64,000 bases of DNA, taken from NCBI GenBank assembly GCA_018267545.1, contig JAFDYG010000475.1, positions 1 through 64,000 on the forward strand, in the 5' to 3' direction. Positions 1 through 15,498 of this stretch are shown one piece after another (the first letter of the stretch is position 1; the number at the start of each line of letters is the position of its first letter). Position numbers and translations under genes: made by a program. This stretch comes from Bacteroidota bacterium (lineage in GTDB: Bacteria; Bacteroidota; Bacteroidia; Chitinophagales; Chitinophagaceae). The notes beneath the pieces are model-generated. The model made no database searches and was not told the DNA's origin. It saw only the letters and a program-made list of their open reading frames with translations.

Positions 1-216
1 GTTCCGGCGTATCTGAGGGAGGCGTCGGGGGTGATGAGCGGGCGGCGGGTGGATGCGGGAGTGGTGGCGGAAGTGGTAGACCGCGCCAGGGAGGAGGTGA
101 CGCCGATCAGTGATGGGAGGGTGACGGCGGAGTACAAGCGGTTGTTGCTGGGGCAGCTGATCAAGGCGCATTTTTTAACGTTGTTTCCGGAACTGGAGGA
201 GGGGGATGTTTTATGA
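1..216 (+). CDS. xdhA: Xanthine dehydrogenase small (FeS/FAD) subunit, 3' end only
   Basis: The window opens inside this gene; 71 codons remain in frame 1 up to the stop at 214-216. The residues match the C-terminal lobe of the CO-dehydrogenase flavoprotein domain, with the family ending TPISDGR..AEYKRLL..QL. This subunit passes electrons from the molybdenum subunit through FeS clusters to FAD and NAD+. The next gene starts in the stop codon (ATGA overlap), as expected for coupled translation of XdhA and XdhB. The 2Fe-2S and FAD domains lie outside the window. Confidence 0.85.
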   Translation, partial: VPAYLREASGVMSGRRVDAGVVAEVVDRAREEVTPISDGRVTAEYKRLLLGQLIKAHFLTLFPELEEGDVL

Positions 217-2480
217 AACATATCGATGCAGCGGCACATACGAGGGGGGAGTCCATCTACCTGGATGATATTCCGTTGATTCGGGGTACGTTATTCGGTG
301 CGGTATATGGGTCACCGGTGGCGCATGGGATAGTGCGGCGGCTGGATACGGCTGAGGCTGAGCAGTGTCCGGGGGTGGTGCGGGTGTTTACGTTCAGGGA
401 TGTGACGGGGGAGAATCAGATTGGGGGTATCATGCCGGACGAACCTTTGTTTGCTGCGGAGCATGTGCATTTTTGCGGTATGCCGATGGCCTTTGTAGTG
501 GCTGTGTCGGAAGAGGCGGCGAAGCATGCAGCTGGGAAGATAAAAGTGGAGATCGACCCGTTGCCGGTGATTACTGATCCGAGGGTGGCGAAGGAAAGGG
601 GGGAGCTGATTGTGCCGCCGCGGACTTTCCGGCTGGGGGAGATCGATGAGGCCTGGCCGTTATGCGAATATATTTTCGAAGGGCGGGCGGATACGAATGG
701 ACAGGAACATTTGTATATCGAGACGCAGGGGGCTTATGCCGTTCCGATGGAAAATCAAACCATTCGTATTTATTCTTCTACGCAGGCGCCGACTGCGGTA
801 CAGCGGGCGGTTTCCAAGGTAACGGGTTTGGCGATGCATGCGTTGGACATCGAAGTGGGCAGGCTGGGAGGAGGGTTTGGGGGGAAGGAGGATCAGGCTA
901 ATGGGTGGGCGGCGTTGTGTGCGCTGGCATGTCTGCACCTGAGGAAGCCGGTCAAGTATTCGATGCCCAGAGCGGATGATATGGTGATGACCGGGAAGCG
1001 GCATCCTTATTCTTCGGATTTTAAGATTGGTCTGGATAAAGATTTTAAGATACTGGCTTATGCCGTGACTTTCTATCAGAATGCGGGTGCGGCGGCGGAC
1101 CTGTCTCCGGCTGTGATGGAGCGGACGTTGTTTCACTGTACCAATTCCTATTTTATCCCCAATGTGCGCGCGACGGCTTATAGCTGCCGAACGAATCTGC
1201 CGCCGAATACGGCTTTTCGGGGGTTTGGCGGTCCGCAGGGGATGTTCGTCATCGAAGCTGCCATTGCGAAGTCGGCGGAGAGCCTGGGTGTTCCGGCGAG
1301 CCTGATCCAGGAGCGGAATTTACAGCAGACGGGAGATGAGTTTCCTTATGGGCAGAAGGCGGTAAGCGAGGCGAGGGCGTGCTGGCGGAAGGCGGAGGAG
1401 TTATATGATCTGGGTGAGCTGAGGGCGTCGGTGGAGGAGTATAACCGGACCAACAGGCTTTTTAAGAAGGGGTTGGCGATGATGCCTGTATGTTTCGGGA
1501 TTTCGTTTACGAAGACGCTGATGAACCAGGCGAGGGCGCAGGTGCACGTGTATACGGATGGAAGTGTCAGTGTGAGTACGGGTGCGGTAGAGATGGGGCA
1601 GGGGGTGAATACGAAGATGATACAGGTGGCTGCGGCGGTATTTTCCATCGATATAGACATGGTGAAGGTGCAGGCGACCAGCACCTGGAAAATTGCGAAT
1701 ACTTCGCCTTCGGCGGCGAGTGCGACGGCCGACTTGAATGGGAAGGCGGTGTTGATGGCTTGTACGGCGATTTTGGAGCGCTTGAAGGAAGTGGCGGCAA
1801 TCGAGCTGGGTGGAAAGGCAGATATAGTGCTGAAGGATGGGAGGGTATGGGCAGGGGGAGAGGAGACGGGGATGAGCTGGAAGCAGCTGGTGATGGCCGC
1901 TTTTGTGAGGCGGGTGAGTCTTTCGGAACATGCGCACTATGCGACGCCGGGGATCCATTTCGATGCGAGCCGGGAGAAGGGGCATCCTTTTGCCTATCAC
2001 GTATATGGTACGGCTATCGTGATGGCTACGCTGGATTGTTTGCGGGGACGGTACAGCTTCGATGCGGTGAAGGTGGTACACGACTTTGGAGTCAGTATGA
2101 ACCCGGTGATCGACCGGGGGCAGATCGAAGGAGGAATCGTCCAGGGAATTGGCTGGATGACGATGGAAGAGATAGTATACGACGAGGAGGGCAGGCTGCG
2201 TTCGAATACTTTGTCTGCGTATAAAGTGCCGGATATTTATTCTGTGCCTTCGCAGATCGACATCGATTTTTTGAATACGGAGCAGGATAATCTGGCGATC
2301 TTCCGCAGCAAGGCGGTGGGCGAGCCGCCATTGATGTACGGTATCGGGGCTTATTTTGCATTGCGGAATGCGATACGGGCGTTCAATCCGTCGGTAGAAT
2401 TGCCGTTCAATGCCCCGTTGACTCCTGAAAAGGCGCTGATGGGTTTGTATGAAAACCAATTGAAGTATGCTGGCGGCTAA
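213..2480 (+). CDS. xdhB: Xanthine dehydrogenase molybdopterin-binding subunit
   Basis: 755 residues, normal for the XdhB half of two-subunit bacterial xanthine dehydrogenases. It oxidises hypoxanthine and xanthine to urate at a molybdenum cofactor. Visible marks are the glycine-rich GRLGGGFGGKE loop near residue 210, the substrate-pocket TAFRGFGGPQG segment near residue 335, and the C-terminal VGEPPLMYG motif. By family knowledge the Glu of that last motif (E704 here) is the general base that activates the Mo-OH group. The start overlaps the xdhA stop by 4 bp and the 3' end overlaps xdhC by 14 bp. A CO-dehydrogenase-like oxidase is the alternative, but the purine context makes XDH far more likely. 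Confidence 0.95.
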   Translation: MKHIDAAAHTRGESIYLDDIPLIRGTLFGAVYGSPVAHGIVRRLDTAEAEQCPGVVRVFTFRDVTGENQIGGIMPDEPLFAAEHVHFCGMPMAFVVAVSEEAAKHAAGKIKVEIDPLPVITDPRVAKERGELIVPPRTFRLGEIDEAWPLCEYIFEGRADTNGQEHLYIETQGAYAVPMENQTIRIYSSTQAPTAVQRAVSKVTGLAMHALDIEVGRLGGGFGGKEDQANGWAALCALACLHLRKPVKYSMPRADDMVMTGKRHPYSSDFKIGLDKDFKILAYAVTFYQNAGAAADLSPAVMERTLFHCTNSYFIPNVRATAYSCRTNLPPNTAFRGFGGPQGMFVIEAAIAKSAESLGVPASLIQERNLQQTGDEFPYGQKAVSEARACWRKAEELYDLGELRASVEEYNRTNRLFKKGLAMMPVCFGISFTKTLMNQARAQVHVYTDGSVSVSTGAVEMGQGVNTKMIQVAAAVFSIDIDMVKVQATSTWKIANTSPSAASATADLNGKAVLMACTAILERLKEVAAIELGGKADIVLKDGRVWAGGEETGMSWKQLVMAAFVRRVSLSEHAHYATPGIHFDASREKGHPFAYHVYGTAIVMATLDCLRGRYSFDAVKVVHDFGVSMNPVIDRGQIEGGIVQGIGWMTMEEIVYDEEGRLRSNTLSAYKVPDIYSVPSQIDIDFLNTEQDNLAIFRSKAVGEPPLMYGIGAYFALRNAIRAFNPSVELPFNAPLTPEKALMGLYENQLKYAGG

Positions 2481-3453
2481 GCGACTGTCTTTATGGCGAC
2501 GGGCTCTTTCGAGTCTGCGACGAAATATTCCCGTCCTGTTGTTATATGTGGTAGAGAGTAAGGGAAGCAGTCCGGGGAGACAGGGTTTTTTTATGCTGGT
2601 GAATGGGGCAGGAGAAATGGAGGGGTCGATCGGCGGAGGCATTATGGAGTTCAAGTTTACGGAACTGGCCAGGGAGTATCTGTCGGAAGGGGTGCGGGTT
2701 TCACAACTTCGCAGGCAGGTGCATGATAAGGCGGAGGGAAAGGACCGGAGCGGGATGATCTGTTCGGGCGAGCAGACGATTTTACTTTATTCTTTACGGG
2801 CGGATGATCTGCCGGCGGTAATCCGGCTGGTCGATTCATTGGAGGATTACCGGAATGGCTGCTTACGGCTATCGCCGGAGGGGATGAGCTTCCGGGACGA
2901 GCCGCCGGCGGTGGACTTTCATTTTGAGGTGCGGGGTGAGGGGGATTGGTCGTATGAAGAGAAGACCGGTTACATCGACCGTTTATTTATCATAGGGGGT
3001 GGCCATTGTGCGCTTGCTTTTTCGCGGGTCATGCAGACCATGGATTTTTATATCGTGTTGTTCGATGACCGGAAGGGGCTGGATTCGATTCGGCGGAACG
3101 AGTATGTGAATGAGCAGGTATTGGTCAGCGACTACGATGATTTGCGGGATCTGGTGGAAGGGGAAGGACGGTATCATTACGTAATGGTGATGACGCAGGG
3201 GTACAGGACGGATGACCGGGCGGTGCGTGCTTTGCTGGACAAGGACTTTCGATATTTCGGGTTATTGGGCAGCAAGGCCAAGATCGGAAAGATGTTCGAG
3301 ACTTACAGGGCGGAGGGGATGGACGAGAAGCGGCTGGGTAGGCTGCGGGCGCCGGCGGGACTGGCTATTCATAGTCAGACGCCGGAGGAGATTGCGGTGA
3401 GCATTGCGGCGGAGATCATACAGGTGAAACATGCGGCGATCATTCCCGGGTAA
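2467..3453 (+). CDS. xdhC: XdhC/CoxI family molybdenum-cofactor maturation protein
   Basis: 328 residues. The N-terminal half carries the XdhC/CoxI domain (VESKGSSPGRQGFFMLV and GSIGGGIMEF, residues ~28-66). The C-terminal half is a Rossmann-like XdhC_C domain beginning at IIGGGHCALAF near residue 178 and continuing to GLLGSKAKIGKMFE. XdhC binds Moco, stabilises it during sulfuration and inserts it into XdhB; it is not part of the final enzyme. The ATG lies inside the 3' end of xdhB, so the two are translationally coupled. Its 3' end overlaps that of the convergent uricase gene by 14 bp. Confidence 0.92.
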   Translation: MLAAKRLSLWRRALSSLRRNIPVLLLYVVESKGSSPGRQGFFMLVNGAGEMEGSIGGGIMEFKFTELAREYLSEGVRVSQLRRQVHDKAEGKDRSGMICSGEQTILLYSLRADDLPAVIRLVDSLEDYRNGCLRLSPEGMSFRDEPPAVDFHFEVRGEGDWSYEEKTGYIDRLFIIGGGHCALAFSRVMQTMDFYIVLFDDRKGLDSIRRNEYVNEQVLVSDYDDLRDLVEGEGRYHYVMVMTQGYRTDDRAVRALLDKDFRYFGLLGSKAKIGKMFETYRAEGMDEKRLGRLRAPAGLAIHSQTPEEIAVSIAAEIIQVKHAAIIPG

Positions 3454-4285
3454 GGGTGCCCGTGATATATCCATAGGGCTCGTCGGTAGCAATGAAGATT
3501 TCGTTTTCGTTGTCGATACCAAATTGCTGAAGATTGAACGGTATATGGTGTTTGTTGGGCATTTTCAGAGTGATTTCCCGGATGGAGGGGAAGTCGGAAA
3601 GGGCGTTTTCTCCCATGGCATAAAGGGTATGCTGTACGGAGAGGCTTTTGTGCGTGGCGAAGGTGTGGAGGAGGTTGTTCCGGATCTCGTTATAGAGCTG
3701 TCCCGGGTTGGGGGGAAGCCCATCGTAGGTCCAGGATACTTCGCATTGCGTGGAGAAGATACGGTCTGCGGTTTCTTTGAGGGTAGTGTATTGGTCCTTT
3801 ATATAGTTTTCGAAACCGGAGTCGGTGGTTTTGAGGATGAGCAGGTCTTTTATACCGGCTGAAAGGGTGGTTTGCTGCCGGTTCTTTTTTATATGGGCCT
3901 CGTGTTTTTCGGAGCCTCCGTCGATGAAGGAGTGGGGGTGGGGGGCTCCGTCGATGGTCATTCTTTTCCAGCTGAATTCGGTGATTTCGATATCGACTTC
4001 CGATACCTGCGGGTTATTGGATAGAAAATGATCGGCCAGATGGAGGCCAAATTCTTCGATGGAAGCGGTGAATTTATCTTTAGCCAGCGCATAGACGGTG
4101 TTCTTCATCGTATCGGTGGGCAATACTTTTGTATTGTCTCCGATGGTATGAACGGTGTCGAAATCTCCTTTCAGGGAGACATTCACGGAGATGTGCCTTA
4201 TCTCGTGATGGTCTGGTCGCCGGATGATTTTAGACAACCGGATGGCCTGCTTTCCATATGCGTTCCTGTCGAGGTGAAATGCCAT
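3440..4285 (-). CDS. pucL: Urate oxidase (uricase)
   Basis: 281 residues, typical of cofactor-free uricases. It converts urate, O2 and water to 5-hydroxyisourate and H2O2. The N-terminal T-fold contains DNTKVLPTDTMKNTVYALAK (residues ~50-70), which carries the active-site Thr; later conserved stretches include EFGLHLADHFL and the GAPHPHSFIDGG loop. It is the only gene of the purine block on the minus strand: it faces xdhC tail to tail and diverges from allB across 50 bp. Its codons end in C far more often than those of its + strand neighbours, which reflects strand composition rather than transfer. A fused UraD domain, as in Bacillus PucL, is absent; uraD is a separate gene here. Confidence 0.95.
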   Translation of the reverse strand: MAFHLDRNAYGKQAIRLSKIIRRPDHHEIRHISVNVSLKGDFDTVHTIGDNTKVLPTDTMKNTVYALAKDKFTASIEEFGLHLADHFLSNNPQVSEVDIEITEFSWKRMTIDGAPHPHSFIDGGSEKHEAHIKKNRQQTTLSAGIKDLLILKTTDSGFENYIKDQYTTLKETADRIFSTQCEVSWTYDGLPPNPGQLYNEIRNNLLHTFATHKSLSVQHTLYAMGENALSDFPSIREITLKMPNKHHIPFNLQQFGIDNENEIFIATDEPYGYITGTLTRE

Positions 4286-4335: not shown

Positions 4336-5637
4336 ATGTCGAAGGCAATTGCTCTATATAGCCAGCAGGTGCTCCTTCCGGAGGGGGTGAAGGAGGCGAC
4401 TCTTTTTATGGATGGGGGTGTGATTACGGAGATCCTACCCGGGATGAGCATGGAAGAGGGAGTCGAGCTGGTCAATGTGGGCAGTAAGGTAGTGATGCCG
4501 GGGGTAATCGATCCGCATGTGCATATCAATGAACCCGGGAGGACAGATTGGGAGGGGTTTGAAACGGCTGGTCTTGCTGCGGTGGCGGGTGGGATAACGA
4601 TGCTCGTGGATATGCCGCTCAATTCCTCACCGGTTACGACGACGGTGGAGGCTTTTGACCAGAAGAGGGCTGCTGCTGCGGGTAAGGTGCGTTGTGATTG
4701 TGGATTTTGGGGTGGGGTGGTGCCTGGTAATGCGGGGGAGATCGGACCGTTGATCGAGCGTGGGGTGCTGGGTTTTAAGGCTTTTCTCACGCATTCGGGG
4801 ATCGATGAATTTCCAAATGTCAAAGAGGATGATTTGCGGAAGGTGATGCCGGTGATAGCGGGTGCGGGCTTGCCATTGCTGGTGCATTGCGAGCTGGAAG
4901 ATGGGGGGGCTTTTGCGTTTGAGGGGAACCCGAGGTCATACCGGAGGTACCTTATGTCGAGACCGGCGAGCTGGGAGGACGAGGCGATTGCGCTAATGAT
5001 TAAGCTGTGTGAGGAATATAAGTGCCGGGTGCATATCGTGCATTTGTCTTCGGCTTCTTCGATTCCGCAGATACGGCGTGCGAAGGAGCGTGGACTGCCG
5101 CTGACGGTTGAGACGGCGCCGCATTATTTATATTTTTCGGCGGAAGGGATTGCGGATGGGGCGACTTATTTCAAGTGTGCGCCACCTATCCGGGAGAAGG
5201 TAAATAACGATTTGTTGTGGGAGGCCTTACGGGAAGGGGTGATCGATTTTGTGGCTACGGATCATAGTCCTGCGCCTCCTATCCTGAAGATGGCCGAGAG
5301 CGGGGATTTTACCAGGGCCTGGGGAGGGATTTCGTCTTTACAGCTGTTGCTGCCGGTTGTATGGACGGCAGCGAGCCAGCGGGGATTTGGTTTGGAAGAT
5401 ATGGTGAAATGGCTGTGCAGGAAGCCGGCTGAGCTGGCAGGGGTGTCGGAAGAGCGAGGGAGTATAGTACGAGGATATAGAGCAGACTTAGTGGTATGGG
5501 ATGAGGGGCGCAGGTTTCGGGTAGAGGAGTCGGGGCTGTATCACCGGCATAAGGGGACGCCTTACCTGGGTGAGGAGCTATTGGGAGTGGTGGAGCAGAC
5601 CTGGTTGGGTGGGGAGCGTGTATTTGGAAATTCGTGA
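4336..5637 (+). CDS. allB: Allantoinase
   Basis: 433 residues, cyclic amidohydrolase (dihydroorotase-like) superfamily. It hydrolyses the hydantoin ring of allantoin to allantoate. Metal-site motifs are in the right order: VIDPHVHINEPGRTDWEG (HxH, residues ~56-75), the probable carbamylated Lys in GVLGFKAFLTHSG (~150), LLVHCE, HIVHLSSASS, and the distal Asp in FVATDHSP (~310). It is the first gene of the long rightward operon and is followed by allC after a single base. Dihydropyrimidinase is the main alternative; the allC/allE context argues for allantoinase. Confidence 0.93.
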   Translation: MSKAIALYSQQVLLPEGVKEATLFMDGGVITEILPGMSMEEGVELVNVGSKVVMPGVIDPHVHINEPGRTDWEGFETAGLAAVAGGITMLVDMPLNSSPVTTTVEAFDQKRAAAAGKVRCDCGFWGGVVPGNAGEIGPLIERGVLGFKAFLTHSGIDEFPNVKEDDLRKVMPVIAGAGLPLLVHCELEDGGAFAFEGNPRSYRRYLMSRPASWEDEAIALMIKLCEEYKCRVHIVHLSSASSIPQIRRAKERGLPLTVETAPHYLYFSAEGIADGATYFKCAPPIREKVNNDLLWEALREGVIDFVATDHSPAPPILKMAESGDFTRAWGGISSLQLLLPVVWTAASQRGFGLEDMVKWLCRKPAELAGVSEERGSIVRGYRADLVVWDEGRRFRVEESGLYHRHKGTPYLGEELLGVVEQTWLGGERVFGNS

Positions 5638-5638
5638 C

Positions 5639-6877
5639 ATGAGCGGATATATTCAGCGTGCGGAACATATTATCGGACGGATTGACGAGCTGGCTGCAAT
5701 CAGCGAGCAGGATTCGGGTATTACGCGCCGTTATGGTACGGGGGCTGCTGTGTCGGCGGGTGATAAGGTATTGGCCTGGATGCGTGAGGCGGGATTGACG
5801 GGCAGGAAGGATGCTATCGGTAATATCCGGGGAAGGCTGGACTGCGGCAACCCGGCTGCCCGGACGATGGTCATCGCTTCTCATATCGATACGGTGGTGA
5901 ATGCGGGCAAGTGGGATGGGCCGTTGGGGGTATTGGTGGGTTTAGATCTGCTGGAGCAGGTTATTCGTAAGGGAAAGATTTTTCCTTTTCATATAGAGCT
6001 GATTGCGTTTTGTGACGAAGAGGGGGTACGTTTTCATACGACGTACCTGGGGAGTAAGGTAGTGGCGGGGAGTTTCGAGCCGGAGCTATTGGAGCGTAGG
6101 GATGAGGAGGGGATAAGTCTTCGGGAAGCGGTGGAGGCTATCGGCGGCAGGCCTGACGAATTGGATAGCGAGGCGATCGGGGACGGGAGGTGGCTGGGTT
6201 ATTTCGAGCTGCATATCGAGCAGGGGCCTGTGTTATATGAGCGGAAGGTTCCGGTGGCCCTGGTGAAGGGGATTGCGGGCCAGGTGCGTGCGGAAGTAGT
6301 CTTTACGGGCATGGCGGGGCATGCGGGAACGGTGCCGATGATTATGCGGCAGGATGCGTTGTGCGGGGCTTCGGAGTTTGTTTTGGGAGCGGAGGAGCTG
6401 GCTGGTGGGGAAGGAAGCGGGTTGGTGGCTACTGTGGGGAAGCTGGAGGTCAGGGGCGGAGCGAGCAATGTGATTCCGGGGGAGGTGGTTTGCAGCGTCG
6501 ATATACGGAGTGCGGATGCGGGTGTGCTGGAGCGGGGGCATGAGCGGCTGCGTTTGTTGGCTGAGGAGATCGGGAGCAGGCGTGGTCTTGGGGTGCAGTG
6601 GAAGGTCGTACAGGCGACTGCGCCTGTCGATGGAGACGAGCGGATGAATAAGCTGTTGGGAGAAAGTATCGAAGCGGCGGGATATCCGGTGCTTGAGCTG
6701 GTGAGCGGTGCGGGGCACGATGCTGTGCCGGTTTCGGCTGTGTCGCCCGTTTCTATGCTGTTCGTCCGGTGTTATAAGGGAATTAGCCATCATCCATTGG
6801 AAGATGTGGAGAAGGGGGATCTGGCGGCGGCGATTGCTGTCGCGGAAATTTTTGTCGATCGACTAACTGAAATTTAG
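5639..6877 (+). CDS. allC: Allantoate amidohydrolase
   Basis: 412 residues, M20 metallopeptidase-like amidohydrolase of the AllC/hydantoinase-carbamoylase group. It hydrolyses allantoate to ureidoglycine, CO2 and ammonia. Metal and substrate motifs: SHIDTVVNAGKWDGPLG (residues ~81-97), FCDEEGVRFHTTYLGS (~124-139) and the dimerisation/active-site ELHIEQGPVLYE (~191-202). An upstream in-frame start at 5570 would place the N-terminus inside allB; ATG 5639, one base after the allB stop, gives the normal N-terminus. An N-carbamoyl amino acid hydrolase would look similar, but the next gene encodes the enzyme that uses its product. Confidence 0.92.
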   Translation: MSGYIQRAEHIIGRIDELAAISEQDSGITRRYGTGAAVSAGDKVLAWMREAGLTGRKDAIGNIRGRLDCGNPAARTMVIASHIDTVVNAGKWDGPLGVLVGLDLLEQVIRKGKIFPFHIELIAFCDEEGVRFHTTYLGSKVVAGSFEPELLERRDEEGISLREAVEAIGGRPDELDSEAIGDGRWLGYFELHIEQGPVLYERKVPVALVKGIAGQVRAEVVFTGMAGHAGTVPMIMRQDALCGASEFVLGAEELAGGEGSGLVATVGKLEVRGGASNVIPGEVVCSVDIRSADAGVLERGHERLRLLAEEIGSRRGLGVQWKVVQATAPVDGDERMNKLLGESIEAAGYPVLELVSGAGHDAVPVSAVSPVSMLFVRCYKGISHHPLEDVEKGDLAAAIAVAEIFVDRLTEI

Positions 6878-6881
6878 CTGT

Positions 6882-7628
6882 ATGGAAATATCTGCGTTAA
6901 CGAGATCGGTAGTAAAAAAGAGTCATGCCTTAATCAGTCCGGACGGGTATATCAATAGTGTGGTTCCGGGCTGGAAGGATTGCACGGTGAATGTCATCAT
7001 CAACGAGCAGATGGGGGCGCGTTTTTGTCAGACCATCGTGACGTGCGGGACCGGGACGGTGCTGACGGGAAAGACGTTGCAGTCTCAATTGTTTTTTTAT
7101 GTGGTCAGCGGCGGGTGCAAGGCCGGTGTGGGTGATGGTTCTGTGAAGCTGTCGAAGGGGGGATATGGATATATACCTGTGGGAAAGACCTATCGGCTGG
7201 ATGGCTTCGAGGAGGGGACACAGCTGTTGACCTTTCACAAGGTTTATGAGCCGCTGGAAGGTTTTTCGGTTCCGGCTGTCTTGTTCGGGTCTGCGGCGGA
7301 TGTGGCGGGGAATGAGTACCTGGGCGATCCGGCTTTGCGGCTGCAGGTTTTGTTACCGGATGAGCCGGCTTTCGATATGGCAGTAAATATATTTACCTAT
7401 GATCCTGGCGGCCATCTGCCCCTTGTGGAGACGCATATCATGGAGCATGGTTTATTGTACCTGGCTGGTCAGGGTGTATACCGGCTGGACCAGGATTGGT
7501 ACCCGGTGAGGAAGGGGGACTGTATTTGGATGGCTCCTTATTGTCAGCAGTGGTTTACGGCGATGGGGAAGGAGCCGGCTGTTTATATCTATTATAAGAA
7601 TGTAAATCGATTCCCGACGACTATATGA
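6882..7628 (+). CDS. allE: (S)-ureidoglycine aminohydrolase, double cupin
   Basis: 248 residues. The bicupin fold is visible as two beta-rich halves. The second has the metal-type cupin motif GHLPLVETHIMEHGLLYLAG near residues 171-190, giving His and Glu ligands for Mn2+. The enzyme releases ammonia from unstable (S)-ureidoglycine to form (S)-ureidoglycolate. It lies 4 bp after allC, and its stop overlaps the uraD start by 4 bp. The CEQMGARF-like substrate strand appears as NEQMGARFCQT at ~42-52. Confidence 0.9.
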   Translation: MEISALTRSVVKKSHALISPDGYINSVVPGWKDCTVNVIINEQMGARFCQTIVTCGTGTVLTGKTLQSQLFFYVVSGGCKAGVGDGSVKLSKGGYGYIPVGKTYRLDGFEEGTQLLTFHKVYEPLEGFSVPAVLFGSAADVAGNEYLGDPALRLQVLLPDEPAFDMAVNIFTYDPGGHLPLVETHIMEHGLLYLAGQGVYRLDQDWYPVRKGDCIWMAPYCQQWFTAMGKEPAVYIYYKNVNRFPTTI

Positions 7629-8128
7629 CGCTGGAAGCATTGAACGGGCTGGACGAGGCTTCGCTAGGCGATGCTTTGCGCAATTGCTGCGGGAGTACGC
7701 GCTGGGTGGAAAAGATGCGGGCTATTTTTCCGGTGGCGGACCGGGAGTTTTTGTATGCAGAGGCGGTATCGGCATGGAGGGCTTGCAGCGAAGAGGATTG
7801 GCGGGAGGCCTTTGGGCATCATCCGCGGATTGGGGATTTGGAGGGATTGAAGAAGAAGTTTGCGGCTACGGCGGACTGGGCTTCCCAGGAGCAGGCGGGA
7901 ACGGGCGGGGCTTCGATGGAAGTGTTGGAGGCGTTGGCGGAGGGGAACGAGGCGTATGAGCGGAGGTACGGGTATATTTTTATCGTTTGTGCCACGGGGA
8001 AGACGGCGGAGGAGATGCTGGGGCTGCTGAGGGGACGAATAGGGAATGTGCCGGAGGCGGAGCTGTTGGTGGCGATGGGAGAGCAGGAAAAAATTACGCG
8101 GATACGATTGGAAAAATTATTGTCATGA
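7625..8128 (+). CDS. uraD: OHCU decarboxylase
   Basis: 167 residues, all-helical OHCU decarboxylase family. It converts 2-oxo-4-hydroxy-4-carboxy-5-ureidoimidazoline to (S)-allantoin, the last of the three steps from urate. The diagnostic HPRIGD motif, whose His is catalytic in the family, is at residues ~61-66, followed by the conserved SQEQAG segment and the C-terminal GNVPEAELLVAMGEQEKITRIRLEKL helices. It overlaps allE and uraH by 4 bp each. Confidence 0.93.
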   Translation: MTLEALNGLDEASLGDALRNCCGSTRWVEKMRAIFPVADREFLYAEAVSAWRACSEEDWREAFGHHPRIGDLEGLKKKFAATADWASQEQAGTGGASMEVLEALAEGNEAYERRYGYIFIVCATGKTAEEMLGLLRGRIGNVPEAELLVAMGEQEKITRIRLEKLLS

Positions 8129-8442
8129 GCAGGATAACGACGCATGTATTGGATCAATCGCTGGGCCGGCCGGCGGGCGGGGTGGAGATCGTTTTGTTTG
8201 CGGGAGAAGAGGAGGTGGCGAGGGGGCGGACGAATGCCGACGGCCGGATTGGCGACTGGGCGGACGTTCCAGGGATTAGGATAGGGAAGCTGCGGTTCGA
8301 GACGGGGGAATATTTCAAGCGGCTGGAAGTGGCGACTTTCTATCCTTTTGTGGAGGTCTATTTCGAGATCACGGCGGAGGGGCATTATCATATACCCTTG
8401 TTATTGAGTCCATGGGGATATTCTACGTATCGGGGTTCCTGA
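8125..8442 (+). CDS. uraH: 5-hydroxyisourate hydrolase (transthyretin-like)
   Basis: 105 residues from ATG 8125, which sits in the uraD stop (ATGA). It opens the ring of 5-hydroxyisourate to give OHCU. All three family signatures are present: TTHVLDQSLGRPA at the N-terminus, the central GRIGDW region, and the C-terminal HIPLLLSPWGYSTYRGS with the invariant YRGS tail that separates these enzymes from transthyretin. An in-frame start at 7987 lies far inside uraD and is not needed. There is no signal peptide, so it acts in the cytoplasm. Confidence 0.95.
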   Translation: MSRITTHVLDQSLGRPAGGVEIVLFAGEEEVARGRTNADGRIGDWADVPGIRIGKLRFETGEYFKRLEVATFYPFVEVYFEITAEGHYHIPLLLSPWGYSTYRGS

Positions 8443-8455
8443 TTAAATCATCTAT

Positions 8456-9886
8456 ATGTTATCGATCAAAGACAAAGAAAGAGAGGGATTGCTGGAGTCG
8501 CTGGGTAGTGCGAACCGTGCTTTTCAGGCCAGCTATCCGGGAGACCGTCCTGACCGTCAGCCGGTGCATACGGTATATGGGGGCGCCAATCTTTTTAAAA
8601 GCGACACCTGTGTGAAGATGGGTGAGATTGCTTTGAAGAGCCTTCGCATGTATGCGCCGAATTTTGCGGAGCTGTCCCGGGTGCTTTTGCTGGAGGGGCA
8701 TGATTATCTGCCTCAGCTGGAAAGAGAGGTGGGAGAGCTGGATCATCGGCTGAGGGAGATGGGAGAAGAGGAACGGAGGAAAGATCGGGCCTGGCTGTCC
8801 TGGTCGGTCTATCAGAAAATCATCCGTAAGCTGGAAACGGAGGCGGTAGAGGATTTTAGAATCGATTTCGAGGATGGCTATGGCAACCGGCCGGACGAGG
8901 AGGAAGATGCCGTTGCGGTTCAGGCGGCGAGGGAGCTGGCGGAAGGGATGAAGAATGGGACGATATCGCCGTTTATCGGTATTCGGATCAAGCCGTTGAC
9001 GGAGGATTTGAAATACCGGAGCGTGCGAACTCTGGATCTTTTTGTTACGGAGCTGTTGAAGCAGACGGGCGGTATGCTGCCGCCCAATTTTGTGGTGATG
9101 CTGCCGAAGGTGACGATACCGGAGCAGGTGAGAACGATGGTGCGGCTTTTCGAGCTGATGGAGCGGGAGAATGGGCTTCCTGCGGGGTCGTTAAAGATGG
9201 AGACGATGGTGGAGGCGACGCAGATCATCATGGATGAGGAGGGGCGCAATCCCTTGTACCGGATTATCCGGGCTTCGGAGGGGCGGTGTATTGCGGCGCA
9301 TTTCGGGACTTATGATTATACGGCTTCTTGCGGGATAACGGCGCGGTACCAGACGATGTCGCATCCGGTTTGTGACTTTGCGCATCATATGACCAGGGTC
9401 GCGTTGGGGGGGACGGGGATTTTCCTATCGGATGGAGCTACCAATGTGATGCCGATCGGTCCGCACCGGGGAGAGCAGCTGACGCTGAGTCAGCAGCTGG
9501 AGAATAGAGATTCGGTACACCGTGCGTGGAGGGTGGGTTTCGGGCATACGATGCATTCGCTGGTAAATGGATTCTACCAGGGGTGGGATTTGAATCCAGC
9601 GCAATTGCCGATGCGATATGCGGCTACGTATGCCTTCTTCCTGGGCAGCCTGGAAGACGCTATCCATCGGTTGAGAATATTTGTAGAACGGAGTGCCGTT
9701 TCTACGCTGACGGGGGACATATTCGACGATGCAGCTACGGGGCAGGGGCTTCTGAATTTCTTTTTAAAGGCGATGAATTGCGGGGCGATCGGCGAGACGG
9801 AGGTGCTGGCGACGGGCCTGACGTTGGAGGAAGTCCGCAGCCGCAGCTTTCATCAAATATTGCAGGGGAGAAGGCGCAGGACTTAG
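8456..9886 (+). CDS. DUF6986 / HpcH-HpaI (CitE-like) aldolase-superfamily protein
   Basis: 476 residues. The fold resembles the CitE, malyl-CoA lyase and malate synthase TIM barrels. [18 protein letters not shown] (residues ~139-156) matches their D-x-E-D strand. [12 protein letters not shown] (~216-227), the metal-type Glu in LKMETMVEA (~246-254) and [15 protein letters not shown] (~281-295) follow in the usual order. I recall related sequences grouped as DUF6986 and sometimes named phosphoenolpyruvate kinase; no activity can be read from the sequence. It starts 14 bp after uraH and is followed closely by ureA, so it is part of the purine-urease operon. The pathway here produces ureidoglycolate but shows no ureidoglycolate lyase, so a role in cleaving it, or in condensing the glyoxylate released, is a reasonable inference. 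Confidence 0.7.
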
Positions 9887-9909: not shown

Positions 9910-10212
9910 ATGCATTTGTCACCAAAAGAAACGGAAAAGCTACTGTTGTTCCTGGCGGGAGAGCTGGCCGAGAAGCGGAAAGCGAGGGGGTTGAAGCTCA
10001 ATTATCCGGAGGCCATCGCCCTGATCAGCAGCCGGCTGCAGGAGGCGGCGAGGGATGGCAGGTCTGTAGCGGAGCTGATGTTGTATGGGGCGACGATCTT
10101 ATCGCGGGAGGATGTGATGGAAGGAATACCCGAGATGATCGAGGAGATACAGATCGAGGCTACGTTTCCGGATGGGACGAAGCTGGTGACGGTGCATGGT
10201 CCGATTCGATGA
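9910..10212 (+). CDS. ureA: Urease gamma subunit
   Basis: 100 residues from ATG 9910, exactly the family length. It begins [20 protein letters not shown] and contains [14 protein letters not shown] and the C-terminal [16 protein letters not shown] signature. A longer in-frame extension to 9526 lies inside the preceding aldolase gene and is discarded. The subunit packs with UreB and UreC in the urease core. It overlaps ureB by 4 bp. Confidence 0.97.
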
Positions 10213-10517
10213 TTCCAGGCGAATATATATTGGCTGACGGCGACATTGTTTGTAATGAAGGCAGGCGTGTGGTTCGTCTAAGCGTAGTGAACAGGGGTGA
10301 CCGACCCGTACAGATCGGTTCGCATTTTCATTTTTTCGAAATCAATAAGGAGGTTGTATTCGAGCGGCGCCTTGCGTTGGGCATGCGGCTGAATATTCCG
10401 TCGGGTACGGCTGTGCGGCTGGAACCGGGGGAGGAGAAGGAGGTGGAGCTGGTAGAGCTGGGAGGACTGAAGCGGGCGGTAGGTTTTAATAACCTGGTAA
10501 ATGGGCCTACGATATGA
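10209..10517 (+). CDS. ureB: Urease beta subunit
   Basis: 102 residues, typical of a separate beta subunit ([13 protein letters not shown] start, [19 protein letters not shown], and C-terminal [10 protein letters not shown]). The three genes ureA, ureB and ureC are separate, unlike the fused alpha of Helicobacter. It overlaps ureA and ureC by 4 bp each, so the structural subunits are translationally coupled. Confidence 0.97.
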
Positions 10518-12229
10518 GTCTTTCCATCAATCGAATCAAGTATGCCAATTTGTATGGTCCTACGGTGGGGGATAAGATCCGGCTTGCCGATACGGAGCTG
10601 TTTATCGAAATAGAAAGGGATTATACCGTGTATGGGGACGAAGTGAAATTTGGCGGGGGAAAGACAATCCGGGATGGGATGGGCCAGTCTGCAACGGCTA
10701 TGCGGGGAGAGGGAGTATTGGATCTTGTCATTACGGGCGTGATTATTATCGACCACGGGGGGATTATAAAAGCGGATATTGGTATCCGTGATGGTAAGAT
10801 CGTAGGTGTCGGCAAAGCGGGGAACCCGGATACGATGGATGGAGTGGGGGCTGATATGATTATCGGCGCTGCAACCGAGGTTCATGGGGGAGCGGGGCTG
10901 ATCGCTACGGCCGGGGGGATCGATACACACATTCATTTCATTTGTCCGCAGCAGATCGACCATGCGTTGTACAGCGGAGTTACGACGATGATCGGCGGGG
11001 GAACGGGGCCGGCGGATGGGACGAATGCTACGACGGTGACGCCGGGGGCCTGGAATATTCAAAAGATGCTGGAGGCGGCGGATGCGTTTCCGATGAACCT
11101 GGGTTTTTTGGGGAAGGGGAATTGTGCGACGGTGGGTCCGTTGGAGGAGCAGATTATGGCGGGGGCTATAGGGTTAAAGATACATGAAGATTGGGGGGCG
11201 ACGCCGGCGGTGATCGATGCGTCTTTGCGGACTGCGGATAAATATGATGTACAGGTAGCTATTCATACCGATACGTTGAATGAGGCGGGGTTCCTGGAGC
11301 GGACGATGGAAGCGATCGGGGGCAGGGTGATTCATACCTATCATACGGAGGGTGCGGGTGGGGGGCATGCGCCGGATATTATCCGGGCGGCCATGTATCC
11401 GAATATCCTGCCTTCCTCTACCAATCCGACGAGACCTTATACGGTCAATACCATCGATGAGCATCTTGATATGCTAATGGTTTGTCATCATTTGAGCAAG
11501 ACGATACCGGAGGATGTATCGTTTGCCGACAGCCGGATCCGGCCGGAGACGATTGCGGCCGAAGATATCCTGCACGATATGGGTGTGATCAGTATGATGA
11601 GCTCGGATTCGCAGGCGATGGGCAGGGTGAGCGAGGTGATTTTGCGAACCTGGCAGACGGCCGATAAGATGAAGAAGCAGCGGGGGCCGTTGCCGGAGGA
11701 TGAAGGGAAAGGAAACGACAATTTCAGGGTGCGGCGATATGTCGCCAAGTATACCATCAATCCAGCGATTACGCATGGGGTTTCGGATTATGTAGGGAGC
11801 CTGGAAAAGGGGAAGATGGCGGACCTGGTATTGTGGAAGCCTGCGTTATTCGGGGTAAAGCCGGAGCTCATTATCAAGGGTGGGATGATCATTGCGGGGC
11901 GGATGGGGGATCCGGGTGCGAGCATCCCGACGCCGCAGCCGGTGATGTACCGGCCGATGTTCGGCGCTTATGGGAGGGCGGTAGAGCGGATTTGTGCGAG
12001 CTTTGTTTCGCAGGAGTCGATAGGTCTGGTGAGGGCGTATGGCTTGCGGAAGGAAGTGTTGGCGGTCCGGGGCTGCCGGAGTCTTTCCAAGGCGAATATG
12101 GTATTGAACGACCGGACGCCGCTGATCGAGGTAAACCCGGAGAATTATGAGGTGAGGGTGGATGGGAAGGTAGTGGGGTGTGAGCCGGTACGGGAGGTGG
12201 CGATGGCGCAGCGTTACTTTTTATTTTAA
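10514..12229 (+). CDS. ureC: Urease alpha (catalytic) subunit
   Basis: 571 residues. It carries the dinuclear nickel site that splits urea into ammonia and carbamate. Conserved features: metal ligands H139 and H141 in GGIDTHIHF, carbamylated lysine K222 with H224 in GLKIHEDWG, the mobile flap C324-H325 in MVCHHLS, and the Asp ligand in [10 protein letters not shown]. These sit about five residues later than in the Klebsiella enzyme. All catalytic residues are intact, so the enzyme should be active once matured. In this operon it would consume urea released from ureidoglycolate. Confidence 0.98.
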
Positions 12230-12234
12230 ATCAT

Positions 12235-12768
12235 ATGTTGATACAGGAGAAGCTAGGGAGCATTGGCTCGTTTTTGTTGGGAGGCAGGGAGATCGATCTG
12301 CTTTCGGTGGAGTGGTATGAGACGGGGAAGCGGATAATGCGGAAGGTGACGAGGGGTGGAAGGGAGGTTGCTTTGCGGTTTTTGAAGGAAGGCCCATCGT
12401 TGTCGGAGGGTGATGTGCTGTATGCGGATGAGGGGGTGGTGATTGTGGTGGAGGTGCTGCCTTGTGAGGTGATGGTGATTCGGATGGAATCGCTTGCTTC
12501 GGTGGCGTCGGTTTGTTATGAGATCGGGAACAGGCATTTGCCGTTGTTTGTGGGAGAAGGGGGAAGCGCCAGGGTGGGGAAAACGGCGGGGGTGTTGCTG
12601 GCGCCTTTCGAGGAGCCGTTGTATAGGTGGCTGGTGGCGGCGGGATATGAGGTGAGCCGGGAGGAGCGGAAGCTTTTGTATCCGTTACGGTCGACGGTGG
12701 CGGGGCATGTGCATGACGGGTCGGGGAGCTTATTTTCGAAGATATTACAAATGATGGGTTCCAGATGA
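12235..12768 (+). CDS. ureE: Urease accessory protein UreE (nickel metallochaperone)
   Basis: 177 residues with the two-domain UreE layout: an N-terminal peptide-binding-like domain and a C-terminal metal-binding domain containing IGNRHLPLFV near residue 98. UreE delivers nickel to the UreD-UreF-UreG complex. The C-terminus has only a GHVHDGS stretch instead of the long His-rich tail of Klebsiella UreE, so nickel storage capacity is probably low. It lies 5 bp after ureC and overlaps ureF by 4 bp. Confidence 0.88.
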   Translation: MLIQEKLGSIGSFLLGGREIDLLSVEWYETGKRIMRKVTRGGREVALRFLKEGPSLSEGDVLYADEGVVIVVEVLPCEVMVIRMESLASVASVCYEIGNRHLPLFVGEGGSARVGKTAGVLLAPFEEPLYRWLVAAGYEVSREERKLLYPLRSTVAGHVHDGSGSLFSKILQMMGSR

Positions 12769-13391
12769 ATGCGGCATTATTAAGATTATTACAGCTGAGC
12801 GATCCGGCCTTGCCGATCGGGGCGTATGCGCATTCGGGAGGGTTAGAGACGTATGTACAGGAGGGGATGATTCGGGATGCGGGAGGTGCGGGGATGTATG
12901 TGAGGGATATGTTGCGCACGAATGTATTTTATACGGATGCGGCTTTGGTGACGTTGGCGCATAAGGGGTATCGGGATAGGGTAGAGGAATTGGATAGGCT
13001 TTGCGAGGCGGTGAAGGCGCCACGAGAGATAAGGGAGGCCAGCCGAAAGCTTGGGGGAAGGTTGTTGAAGATCTTCGGAAAGGAAGGGGAGGCAAGGCAT
13101 TATTGTGTTGCGTTCGGGTATTGCGCTGCGGTCATGGGAATAGGGCTGCGGGAGGCGTTGACGGGTTTCTATTATAATACAGCGGCGGGGATGGTGACGA
13201 ATTGCGTGAAGCTGGTGCCGATTGGGCAGCAGGATGGGCAGGAGCTGTTGTTGTCGTTGCAGCCGTTAATCCTGGAGCTGGTCGAGCGGGGAATGGAGCC
13301 GGACGAGGACCTGGTCGGTTTATGCTGTGTGGGGCTGGATATTCGCTGCATGCAGCATGAGCGTTTGTATTCGAGGTTGTATATGTCGTGA
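12765..13391 (+). CDS. ureF: Urease accessory protein UreF
   Basis: 208 residues. It has the family start [20 protein letters not shown] followed by [10 protein letters not shown], then an all-helical body and the conserved [14 protein letters not shown] segment near residues 146-159. UreF bridges UreD and UreG in the nickel-insertion complex. It is translationally coupled to ureE (ATGA) and followed by ureG after 1 bp. Confidence 0.93.
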
Positions 13392-13392
13392 A

Positions 13393-14031
13393 ATGAAGGA
13401 GAGAAACTATATAAAAATCGGGATTGCGGGACCGGTGGGTTCCGGTAAGACGGCATTGATCGAGCGGCTTACGCGCCGGCTGGCGGCGGAATACAGTATT
13501 GCCGTTATCACCAATGATATTTATACCAAGGAGGATGCTGAGTTTCTGACTCAGCATAGTCTGCTTGCGCCGGAGCGGATCATCGGGGTGGAGACGGGTG
13601 GTTGTCCGCATACGGCTATCCGGGAGGATGCCAGTATGAACCTGGATGCGGTCGAGGAGATGGCGCAGCGATTCGATGATCTCCGGATAATTTTTATCGA
13701 AAGCGGCGGGGATAATTTGTCCGCCACATTTAGCCCTGAGCTGGCGGATGTGAGCATTTTCGTGATCGATGTTGCAGAGGGGGATAAGATACCGAGGAAG
13801 GGTGGTCCGGGGATTATGCGAAGTGATCTGCTGGTGATCAATAAGACCGATTTGGCGCCGCATGTGGGGGCAAGCCTTGAAGTGATGGAGCGGGATGCGC
13901 GGAAGATGAGAAGGGGTGAACCGTTTGTGTTTACGAATTTGATGAGTCTCGAAGGATTGGATAGCGTTGCGGGTTGGATAAAAAGATATGCGTTGCTGGA
14001 AGAGGTGGAGGAGCCGGTGCTGTGGCGATGA
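13393..14031 (+). CDS. ureG: Urease accessory GTPase UreG
   Basis: 212 residues from ATG 13393 (an upstream extension to 13327 lies inside ureF). SIMIBI-class GTPase: P-loop [10 protein letters not shown] at ~11-20, [15 protein letters not shown] with the CPH nickel motif near residues 65-79, [14 protein letters not shown] and the specificity loop VINKTD. GTP hydrolysis by UreG drives nickel delivery to urease. It overlaps ureD by 4 bp. Confidence 0.97.
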
Positions 14032-14807
14032 GGACGGTGGGTATGATATCGGAGGTGACGCTGCGGGTAGCGGTGCGTGAGGGAAAGAGCTATCTCGCGT
14101 CCGGTTATTATACGCCTCCTTTCAAGGTGGTCGATATTACCGAAGACAAGCGTGGCGGGTGGCTGCAGCTGATGCTGATGTGTTCGTCGCCGGGGATATT
14201 GGATGGGGATGAGCAGGCGCTGTGTGTAAAAGTAGGTGAGGGGGGCAGGCTGCGGCTGCATACCCAGTCTTATCAGCGGCTGTTCCAGATGGAGAAGGGG
14301 GCGGTGCAGCGGATGGAGGTGAGGCTGGGCGCGGGGGCTTATTTTTGCTGGCTGCCGCATCCTTGTGTGCCGCATGCGCGTTCGATTTTCAAAGGAATGA
14401 ACAGAGTGTATCTGTCGGAGGGTTCCCGATTGATTTGGGGGGAAGTATTGACTTGCGGACGGAAGCTGAATGGGGAGGTATTTGCTTGGTCTTCGTATCA
14501 TGTGCGGACGGAAGTGTTTATCGGGGATGAATTGGTCTTATTAGAGAATATATATTTGAAGCCTTCGGATGGAATGATTGGAGGGATGGGGCAGTGGGAG
14601 GGGTATACGCATATGGCTAGCTTGCTGGTGATCCAGGAGGGGGGATTGGGAGGGCTGCGGGAACGTGTGGAAGCGGGGTTGGCGGCTGCGAGCGTCGTTT
14701 ATGGTGTGAGCGAGGGACCGGCGGGAAGCCTGGTTATACGAATGTTGGGAAATAGTGCGGAGCTGCTTTATAATTGCCTAAAGGAGGTGGCTGGATATGC
14801 AAGCTGA
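14028..14807 (+). CDS. ureD: Urease accessory protein UreD
   Basis: 259 residues from ATG 14028 (ATGA overlap with ureG). UreD-family features are the [10 protein letters not shown] segment, [13 protein letters not shown] near residues 49-61, [12 protein letters not shown] and [13 protein letters not shown]. UreD is the scaffold that binds apo-urease and receives nickel from UreE/UreG. Sequence conservation in this family is low, so the position at the end of the urease operon supports the call. The 3' end contains the strong ribosome-binding site for the next gene. Confidence 0.88.
14780..14788 (+). promoter_or_regulatory. Unusually strong Shine-Dalgarno site for the membrane-protein gene
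   Basis: AAAGGAGGT lies inside the last codons of ureD, 8 nt before the ATG at 14797. It is a near-complete complement of the 16S anti-SD. Most other starts in the window have A/T-rich or no recognisable SD, as is normal for Bacteroidota, so this one stands out. It could be partly forced by the ureD codons. Confidence 0.6.
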
Positions 14808-15498
14808 GCTGGGAGTATTATTGACGGCGGCTGTTACCGTTGCCTGTTTGCATACGGTGGCGGGACCGGATCATTATGTGCCGTTTATCGCGCTGTCGAA
14901 GTCAAGGGGTTGGTCTTTTGCGAGGACGATTGGGTGGACGATCGTGTGCGGGTGTGGGCACGTGTGGAGTTCGGTCTTGTTGGGACTGGGTGGAGCTGCG
15001 ATCGGGTGGTCGTTGTCGAAGGTGAAGGGCCTGGAGCAGGTGAGGGGCGGGATTGCGGGTTGGGCCATGCTGGGATTTGGGTTGGTCTATTGTGTTTGGG
15101 GATTGGTGAGGGCGCGGCAGAACCGGCGGCATAAACATTTCGATGTGTATGATGACGGGAGCGTATATGTATACGATCACCGGCATGGAGAGGCGGTGCG
15201 TCCGAAGGATCGGCATGCGGTGACACCCTGGGTGTTGTTTATCGTATTTTTTCTTGGGCCTTGTGAGCCGATGATTCCTTTGTTATATTTTCCCGCGGCG
15301 AAAGCATCCTGGGCGGGGATGTTGTTATTAATCCTGGTTTATACGCTTGTTACGTTGGCTACCATGGTAGGGATGGTGGGGGCTGGATATTATGGATTTG
15401 GGTTTTTGAAGGCGGGTAGGCTGGAGCGTTATGTGCATGCGCTGGGCGGGGCTACGTTGTTTTTGTGTGGGGTGGGGATGGTTTTTATGGGGTGGTGA
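14797..15498 (+). CDS. UreH/NicO-like membrane protein, probable nickel transport
   Basis: 233 residues with about six hydrophobic segments. TM1 carries CLHTVAGPDHYVPF (residues ~17-30); a His..Asp-His motif in the first helix is typical of NiCoT, NicO and UreH nickel transporters. A His-rich cytoplasmic loop (RRHKHFDVYDDG...YDHRHGEAV, residues ~110-135) follows TM3, as in metal exporters and importers of this group. It overlaps ureD by 11 bp and is the last gene of the urease operon, so a role in nickel supply to urease is likely. Direction and substrate cannot be proved from sequence; a sulfite-exporter-like role is the alternative. Confidence 0.7.
   Translation: MQAELGVLLTAAVTVACLHTVAGPDHYVPFIALSKSRGWSFARTIGWTIVCGCGHVWSSVLLGLGGAAIGWSLSKVKGLEQVRGGIAGWAMLGFGLVYCVWGLVRARQNRRHKHFDVYDDGSVYVYDHRHGEAVRPKDRHAVTPWVLFIVFFLGPCEPMIPLLYFPAAKASWAGMLLLILVYTLVTLATMVGMVGAGYYGFGFLKAGRLERYVHALGGATLFLCGVGMVFMGW

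Follow-up and report, generated by a model that had tools for sequence, protein, structure and literature searches.

A DUF6986 protein as a candidate (S)-ureidoglycolate lyase in Bacteroidota purine operons

Ureidoglycolate enzymes and the purine operon

In many species, the recovery of nitrogen from purines ends with the cleavage of ureidoglycolate. The enzymes that act on ureidoglycolate, as set out in part of PMC3793230, are AllD, which oxidizes it, UAH, which performs amidohydrolysis, and AllA/DAL3, which releases urea; a fourth claim, the Burkholderia 'UGL', is questioned there. Part of PMC3534580 describes an Arthrobacter that grows on allantoin without obvious genes for the conversion of allantoate to urea and glyoxylate. 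Our literature search, with subscription papers mostly outside its reach, found no paper naming DUF6986, the protein family considered here.

The stretch of DNA analysed, hereafter the window, is 64 kb of a Bacteroidota genome. It carries the following purine and urease genes:

213..2480, plus strand: xanthine dehydrogenase molybdopterin subunit (MoCoBD_1/2; TIGR02965 768 bits, under the cut-off of 849.5)
2467..3453, plus strand: xdhC-like maturation factor (PF13478 / PF02625)
3440..4285, minus strand: uricase (PF01014, 1e-58)
4336..5637, plus strand: allB, allantoinase (TIGR03178 514 bits, cut-off 357.85)
5639..6877, plus strand: allC-type allantoate amidohydrolase of the M20 family (NF006775 467.9 bits, under 479; TIGR01879 335.9, cut-off 204; ATG at 5639)
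6882..7628, plus strand: ughY, (S)-ureidoglycine aminohydrolase (TIGR03214 290 bits, cut-off 200)
7625..8128, plus strand: uraD, OHCU decarboxylase (PF09349 / TIGR03180)
8125..8442, plus strand: uraH, 5-hydroxyisourate hydrolase (PF00576 / TIGR02962; ATG at 8125)
8456..9886, plus strand: candidate ureidoglycolate lyase, DUF6986 (PF22484), 476 aa (open reading frame, Pfam match and conserved residues R177, K218, E253, D287 and D424)
9910..14807, plus strand: urease genes ureA, ureB, ureC, ureE, ureF, ureG and ureD (PF00547; urease alpha; PF00699, UreE, UreF, UreD; cobW/HypB/UreG)

The encoded route leads from xanthine through urate, allantoin, allantoate and ureidoglycine to (S)-ureidoglycolate, the product of ughY, and after a gap resumes with urease. 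Between xdh and ureD, every gene except DUF6986 has a known function. Because DUF6986 begins 13 bases after the end of uraH and ends 23 bases before the start of ureA, an operon is likely.

It had been proposed from the sequence that this pathway stops at (S)-ureidoglycolate and that no AllA, allantoicase or AllD is visible. The first point is borne out, as ughY is the last recognised step and neither AllA nor allantoicase has a match in the genome. The second stands for these two enzymes, for which profile searches of the 7.3-Mb, 94.7%-complete source assembly returned zero matches to PF04115 (AllA) and none to PF03561 (allantoicase). An AllA encoded elsewhere in the source genome was accordingly rejected. 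Across the 64-kb window, a UAH query matched allC only, at 30% identity.

Several other features of the window are recorded here. The 233-aa protein encoded after ureD (14797-15498) gave no Pfam match and has relatives behind the urease genes in 7 of 80 related loci; it possibly serves nickel transport for urease. At 40095-42785, behind a TonB-receptor/SusD pair, a single open reading frame combines GH43-like and GH35 domains, and the next one fuses DUF2264 to a GH16-like domain. GC skew is above zero in every 4-kb step of the window (0.05 to 0.49), with many large genes on the plus strand.

Family, fold and active site of the DUF6986 protein

The DUF6986 reading frame runs from ATG to TAG over 476 codons with zero internal stops; the minus strand in the same register has four. 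Pfam assigns the protein to PF22484 at 5.4e-188 and 625.3 bits (gathering score 27), with residues 18-467 covering positions 3-407 of the 408-position profile, that is, the full domain, and the genome holds a single copy in its 7.3-Mb, 94.7%-complete assembly. HpcH_HpaI (PF03328) is barely reached (25.5 bits against a cut-off of 25) and is the only other family in the Pfam scan, which gave no match to PF04115 and none to M20, so that the protein is not a UAH/M20 amidohydrolase, and which did not report the malate synthase barrel (MS_TIM-barrel, PF01274) at E<=0.001. The sole NCBIfam match is a weak one to malyl-CoA lyase NF041626 (18.8 bits), below that equivalog's cut-off of 500. Filing the protein as a malate synthase or CitE was rejected because the family cut-offs were missed. 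The original prediction of a protein resembling CitE, malyl-CoA lyase and malate synthase between uraH and ureA is confirmed in family and place by Pfam, NCBIfam and the neighbouring genes.

Structural comparisons lead to the same superfamily. In a PDB profile search, about 80 residues (near 212-295) aligned with malyl-CoA lyase at 2e-5, and malate synthases A/G followed at 0.02-0.08; hhalign against 13 malate synthases gave 60% probability over 154 columns. Two AlphaFold2 models (pLDDT 78.1 and 76.0) share a fold, with residues 285-332 below 50 throughout in the first and mostly so in the second. For both models, Foldseek placed the CitE-like structure 3qqw first and malate synthases next, and malyl-CoA lyases and human CLYBL appeared in the second model's list; TM-scores normalized by query were modest, about 0.3-0.45.

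Three acidic positions are of particular interest:

9212..9214, plus strand: codon of Glu253, predicted first Mg ligand (METMVEAT), which lines up with the glutamate of the (I/V)E motif in malate synthase and malyl-CoA lyase
9314..9316, plus strand: codon of Asp287, predicted second Mg ligand (GTYDY), aligned with the GRWDY / GVADY Asp
9725..9727, plus strand: codon of Asp424, a residue of the motif D-[DE]-[AP]-A-[TS] near the C-terminus, invariant in 22 members

The positions of malyl-CoA lyase and malate synthase that align with E253 and D287 are Mg ligands. Of the family proteins collected, 98 were left once 7 loci with minus-strand matches had been skipped, and 50 after redundancy filtering; 45 of these entered set A1. 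Twenty-two diverse members all keep R135, E139, D140, R177, K179, K218, E253, D287, D326, Q375-D378, P381, R387 and D424, and have D or E at the position of D425. The metal site, described at the outset as intact-looking, therefore does appear so from its alignment with Mg-ligand positions and the invariance of both residues. By eye, the D424 motif resembles the malate synthase segment MEDAATAE, and only a 4.6-bit segment of the 3r4i profile spans D424; the catalytic Asp of malate synthase and malyl-CoA lyase lies in the C-terminal lid. DUF6986 members also keep a W-D-[LM]-[HN]-P motif, a thioester-type feature. A residue signature specific to ureide-linked members was sought and rejected as not clean, R191 and Q256 varying in L161 and L164, both of which lie in ureide clusters.

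The mechanism that we infer, from substrate and metal to leaving group and each single step, is as follows. Mg2+ on Glu253 and Asp287, together with Arg177, would hold the carboxylate and hydroxyl of ureidoglycolate, a mode of binding modelled on the glyoxylate half of the malyl-CoA lyase/malate synthase substrate. The hydroxyl would lose its proton, a carbonyl would form, and urea would depart where the acyl-CoA enolate would otherwise be. An acid of the C-terminal lid, for which Asp424 is a candidate, might protonate the leaving urea, which could then be broken down by the adjacent urease.

Gene neighbourhoods and distribution

We collected 80 DUF6986 relatives from Bacteroidota records, the closest (80% identity) from a Puia MAG, which suggest Chitinophagales as the order of the window, and counted cassette genes by tblastn in their 80 loci of 3.5 to 21 kb, excluding the window itself (L001). 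uraD and uraH were each found in 77 of the 80 and ughY in 55; allB was found in 69, one of these hits having 28% identity, and an allantoicase-like gene (cluster c11) occurred in 18 further loci; a protein 70.7% identical to a c11 member (L153) passes the allantoicase model TIGR02961. Since ughY is present in 55 loci and the allantoicase-like gene in 18 others, DUF6986 tracks ureidoglycolate, whichever enzyme makes it. Neither gene was found in the remaining seven (L011, L024, L046, L055, L076, L077 and L081), several of which are on short contigs. No reading frame in the 80 loci clustered with AllA-like proteins, in a clustering of reading frames that could miss a divergent AllA. In 12 loci, DUF6986 has a saccharopine-dehydrogenase-like gene nearby, which was considered as a partner and rejected, as it accompanies unrelated neighbours in one locus set. 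As a separate observation, uricase, present in 27 loci, alternates with a membrane-like protein of about 470 aa (37 loci) that ends in a CxxCH motif and is presumably PuuD-like; the one member searched gave no NCBIfam match.

Across a sample of 218 genomes of the order, DUF6986 was found in 18 (14 of 114 genera), PF04115 in nine, allantoicase in 14 and UGHY above its family cut-off in six; the UGHY model matched 37 genomes at E<=0.001, of which just these six were counted and the 31 weaker ones left out. The allantoicase and UGHY genomes are disjoint, giving 20 genomes with an enzyme that would make ureidoglycolate, here termed makers. DUF6986 is present in 17 of the 20 makers versus 1 of the 198 other genomes (Fisher p 2.4e-21 on 17/1/3/197, a value that overstates independence because the genomes are related). 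Conversely, 17 of the 18 DUF6986 genomes are makers, the exception being G080 (90% complete, 6% contaminated). In that genome two short contigs, L094 and L101, each carry DUF6986 next to a CoA-transferase subunit; score and layout are identical, and they may be an assembly duplicate. PF04115 was absent from all 20 makers and all 18 DUF6986 genomes of this sample. Its matches in the nine genomes span only about positions 74-139 of the 162-position model, in proteins of about 220 aa (L103-L111), and the five neighbourhoods fetched for them (L119-L123) held no named ureide cluster. In a phylum-wide sample, sharing G000 and G057 with the order sample, DUF6986 occurred in 18 of 392 genomes and UGHY in five, all five of which have DUF6986.

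Three makers lack DUF6986 (DISPLACEMENT: G076, G061 and G121). In G076 the gene order is allB, allC, ughY, uraD, uraH and then, 108 bases on and in the DUF6986 slot, a gene for a second M20 enzyme:

L148:4251-5465, minus strand: plant-type UAH homologue (436 bits to 4pxe), within a purine cluster of Bacteroidota

The best PDB match of this enzyme is 4pxe ('Ureidoglycolate hydrolase'), which we take to be the Arabidopsis ureidoglycolate amidohydrolase, followed by an N-carbamoylase at 236 bits and the E. coli AAH at 185. The first M20 enzyme of G076 shows no such preference for UAH (239 bits to N-carbamoylase, 198 to 4pxe) and passes the allantoate amidohydrolase model NF006775. NCBIfam places the second one in an 'allantoate amidohydrolase' subfamily as well, NF006771 (404 bits, cut-off 399). 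Among the 57 M20 reading frames matched in our neighbourhood sets, it is the single one nearer to UAH, and the other 56, including the AAH of G076, are nearer to AAH. Judged by homology, a UAH-like gene in the DUF6986 slot, in this one genome, which has the only intact cluster lacking DUF6986, points to ureidoglycolate cleavage by DUF6986. Behind the UAH homologue comes a protein of 557 aa whose N-terminus is NucS_C-like. On the contigs of G061 and G121 (14.7 and 9.5 kb) no replacement was seen, unrelated genes following ughY or allantoicase.

Relatives with 32-37% identity are carried by five records of a plasmid collection, all from Actinomycetota, and two of the five have clear ureide neighbours. 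In Tsukamurella, DUF6986 is flanked by guaD/xdh genes and a UGHY-type cupin; in Nocardia the next gene is allantoicase (TIGR02961, 401 bits), and uraD, uraH and uricase lie at a distance of about 5-7 kb. Our ureide query set gave no matches within about 10 kb at the other three loci. Urease genes adjoin DUF6986 in Gordonia, where a thioesterase gene lies just upstream, the Paenarthrobacter neighbours are a polysaccharide-deacetylase-family gene and an NCS1 transporter, and no ureide-type neighbour was identified in Nonomuraea. PF04115 was absent from the four searchable Actinomycetota records, none of which is known to be a whole genome.

In our tree, ureide-linked DUF6986 members occur in both phyla, the label 'ureide' being taken from neighbours or genome (for L076 from an adjacent xdhC only, for L117 from urease and for L116 from one polysaccharide-deacetylase-family gene and one NCS1 gene). 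Four of the 18 DUF6986 genomes of the phylum sample (G364, G445, G503 and G586) have neither allantoicase nor UGHY, and their DUF6986 genes lie among unrelated genes, apart from a guaD-like reading frame (40% identity) about 0.8 kb from DUF6986 in G445. Allantoicase status in this sample comes from a direct search of nine of the 18 genomes; the rest have UGHY (5), allantoicase (G040) or an allantoicase-like reading frame within the gene cluster (G248, G340 and G456). The four proteins (L160, L162, L163 and L165) form a long-branched clade with 97/98 support, which carries a long-branch flag and some altered residues, and this clade may have another function.

Readings of the function and comparison with known systems

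We hold it to be somewhat more probable than not, on comparative genomic grounds, that DUF6986 splits (S)-ureidoglycolate into urea and glyoxylate, as a Mg2+-dependent lyase with no relation to AllA. This lyase reading is favoured because the distribution of the family follows the ureidoglycolate makers without overlapping AllA in the order sample, and because of the uraD-uraH-DUF6986 cassette, the ureide loci in two of five Actinomycetota records and the one UAH-like swap; release of urea in particular is favoured because urease genes adjoin DUF6986. Several points count against it. To our knowledge, no enzyme of this fold makes such a C-N cut, the closest PDB profiles are those of malyl-CoA lyase and malate synthase, D424 and the W-D-[LM]-[HN]-P motif are kept, and G080 as well as four genomes of the phylum sample have DUF6986 but neither allantoicase nor UGHY. 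G061 and G121 show no replacement, the swap is known from G076 alone, where NCBIfam assigns the enzyme to an 'allantoate amidohydrolase' subfamily, and three of the five Actinomycetota loci gave no ureide matches. Allantoicase can also act on (R)-ureidoglycolate, so that genomes with allantoicase may not need a lyase.

The original prediction had left a choice between glyoxylate capture and a new lyase for ureidoglycolate; gene patterns favour the ureidoglycolate step, and thioester-type features and the divergent members keep capture alive. Capture is a possible but clearly less probable reading. The protein would, in the manner of malate synthase or malyl-CoA lyase, join an acyl-CoA such as acetyl-CoA to glyoxylate, giving malate or malyl-CoA, and ureidoglycolate would be cleaved spontaneously or by an unrecognised enzyme. 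Its profile and fold neighbours (malyl-CoA lyase, malate synthase A/G and CLYBL) fit such chemistry, as do invariant Glu253, Asp287 and Asp424, the thioesterase gene upstream in Gordonia, the CoA-transferase subunit adjoining in G080 and the occurrence of divergent members where no known ureidoglycolate maker is encoded. Moreover, two relatives score 26-27 bits with the malate synthase barrel model, around its cut-off of 26.4, and 10 of the 18 DUF6986 genomes of the order have no other malate synthase above the cut-off. However, the other eight, that of the window included, have a malate synthase, compared with 40 of the 200 genomes without DUF6986, and hence there is no avoidance between the two. 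A divergent malate synthase of the source genome lies on another contig, in a 637-aa frame whose score with malate synthase A is 249 bits, against a cut-off of 594.5:

L082:910-2820, plus strand: divergent malate synthase, longer by about 100 residues (G000; a relative occurs in G170, L102)

A need for glyoxylate capture is thus possible in some genomes rather than a common denominator. In addition, G076, which has a classical malate synthase, has the UAH-like enzyme in the slot, and under capture the 17 maker genomes would have no recognised enzyme for the cleavage step, in searches that covered AllA. If the protein cleaves ureidoglycolate, each mandatory step that releases nitrogen is filled; if it acts as a malate synthase, cleavage has, as far as tested, no recognised enzyme.

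Improbable, though it would explain the genomic pattern together with the retained thioester-type lid and motif, is a bifunctional urea-releasing malate synthase, in which urea would be stripped off on Mg2+ and the bound glyoxylate joined to acetyl-CoA to give malate or malyl-CoA. If true, purine carbon would enter the TCA cycle without free glyoxylate, two steps taking place in one barrel. We know of no precedent for such an enzyme, and the separate malate synthase in 8 of the 18 DUF6986 genomes of the order argues against it. Least probable of all is a CoA-independent aldol reaction of the HpcH/HpaI type, joining glyoxylate to a keto acid such as pyruvate, which is suggested by the Pfam match just above its cut-off and by a weak PDB match (0.094) to 6kin, named an HpcH/HpaI aldolase (although the sister entry, 6kkh, carries the title malyl-CoA lyase), but which leaves the ureidoglycolate step unfilled and does not agree with the retained C-terminal motif, since CoA-independent HpaI aldolases are not known to have that lid domain.

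If the lyase reading is true, a Pfam DUF would gain a function, and a barrel known for C-C bonds would have been recruited to C-N cleavage. It would be a further unrelated enzyme cleaving ureidoglycolate, in Bacteroidota and probably in Actinomycetota, and could close a gap noted in at least one genome, that of Arthrobacter sp.

Of the structures nearest to DUF6986, the CitE-like protein 3qqw takes the top Foldseek position for both models, at 16-18% identity and with an entry named only 'putative lyase'; 3r4i is a weak profile match of the same kind, in which a C-terminal segment also aligns. With malate synthase A/G (PF01274) DUF6986 has in common the barrel, the Mg-ligand positions and the C-terminal motif resembling D-A-A-T, but the window protein has no reported match to the MS_TIM-barrel family and hhalign reaches 60% only. 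Malyl-CoA/beta-methylmalyl-CoA lyases supply the best PDB profiles (5ugr 2e-5, 4l9y 2.6e-4) and share the PK, (I/V)E and D(Y/F) motifs. Unlike them, DUF6986 is about 140 aa longer and lies in ureide operons, the significant match spans no more than some 80 residues, and the segment W-x-I-HP-x-Q has a negative bit score in the DUF6986 alignment.

Among the enzymes of the pathway, UAH (EC 3.5.3.19) resembles DUF6986 in that a UAH-like gene takes its position in G076, suggesting the same substrate, but it belongs to the M20 family and, according to part of PMC3793230, yields ammonia and CO2, not urea. AllA/DAL3 (EC 4.3.2.3, PF04115) differs in its cupin fold and nickel dependence, as described in part of PMC3793230, and in the lack of a PF04115 match in DUF6986. 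Its likeness lies in the proposed reaction and the position in the pathway, and in urea as the product, with urease genes adjoining DUF6986.
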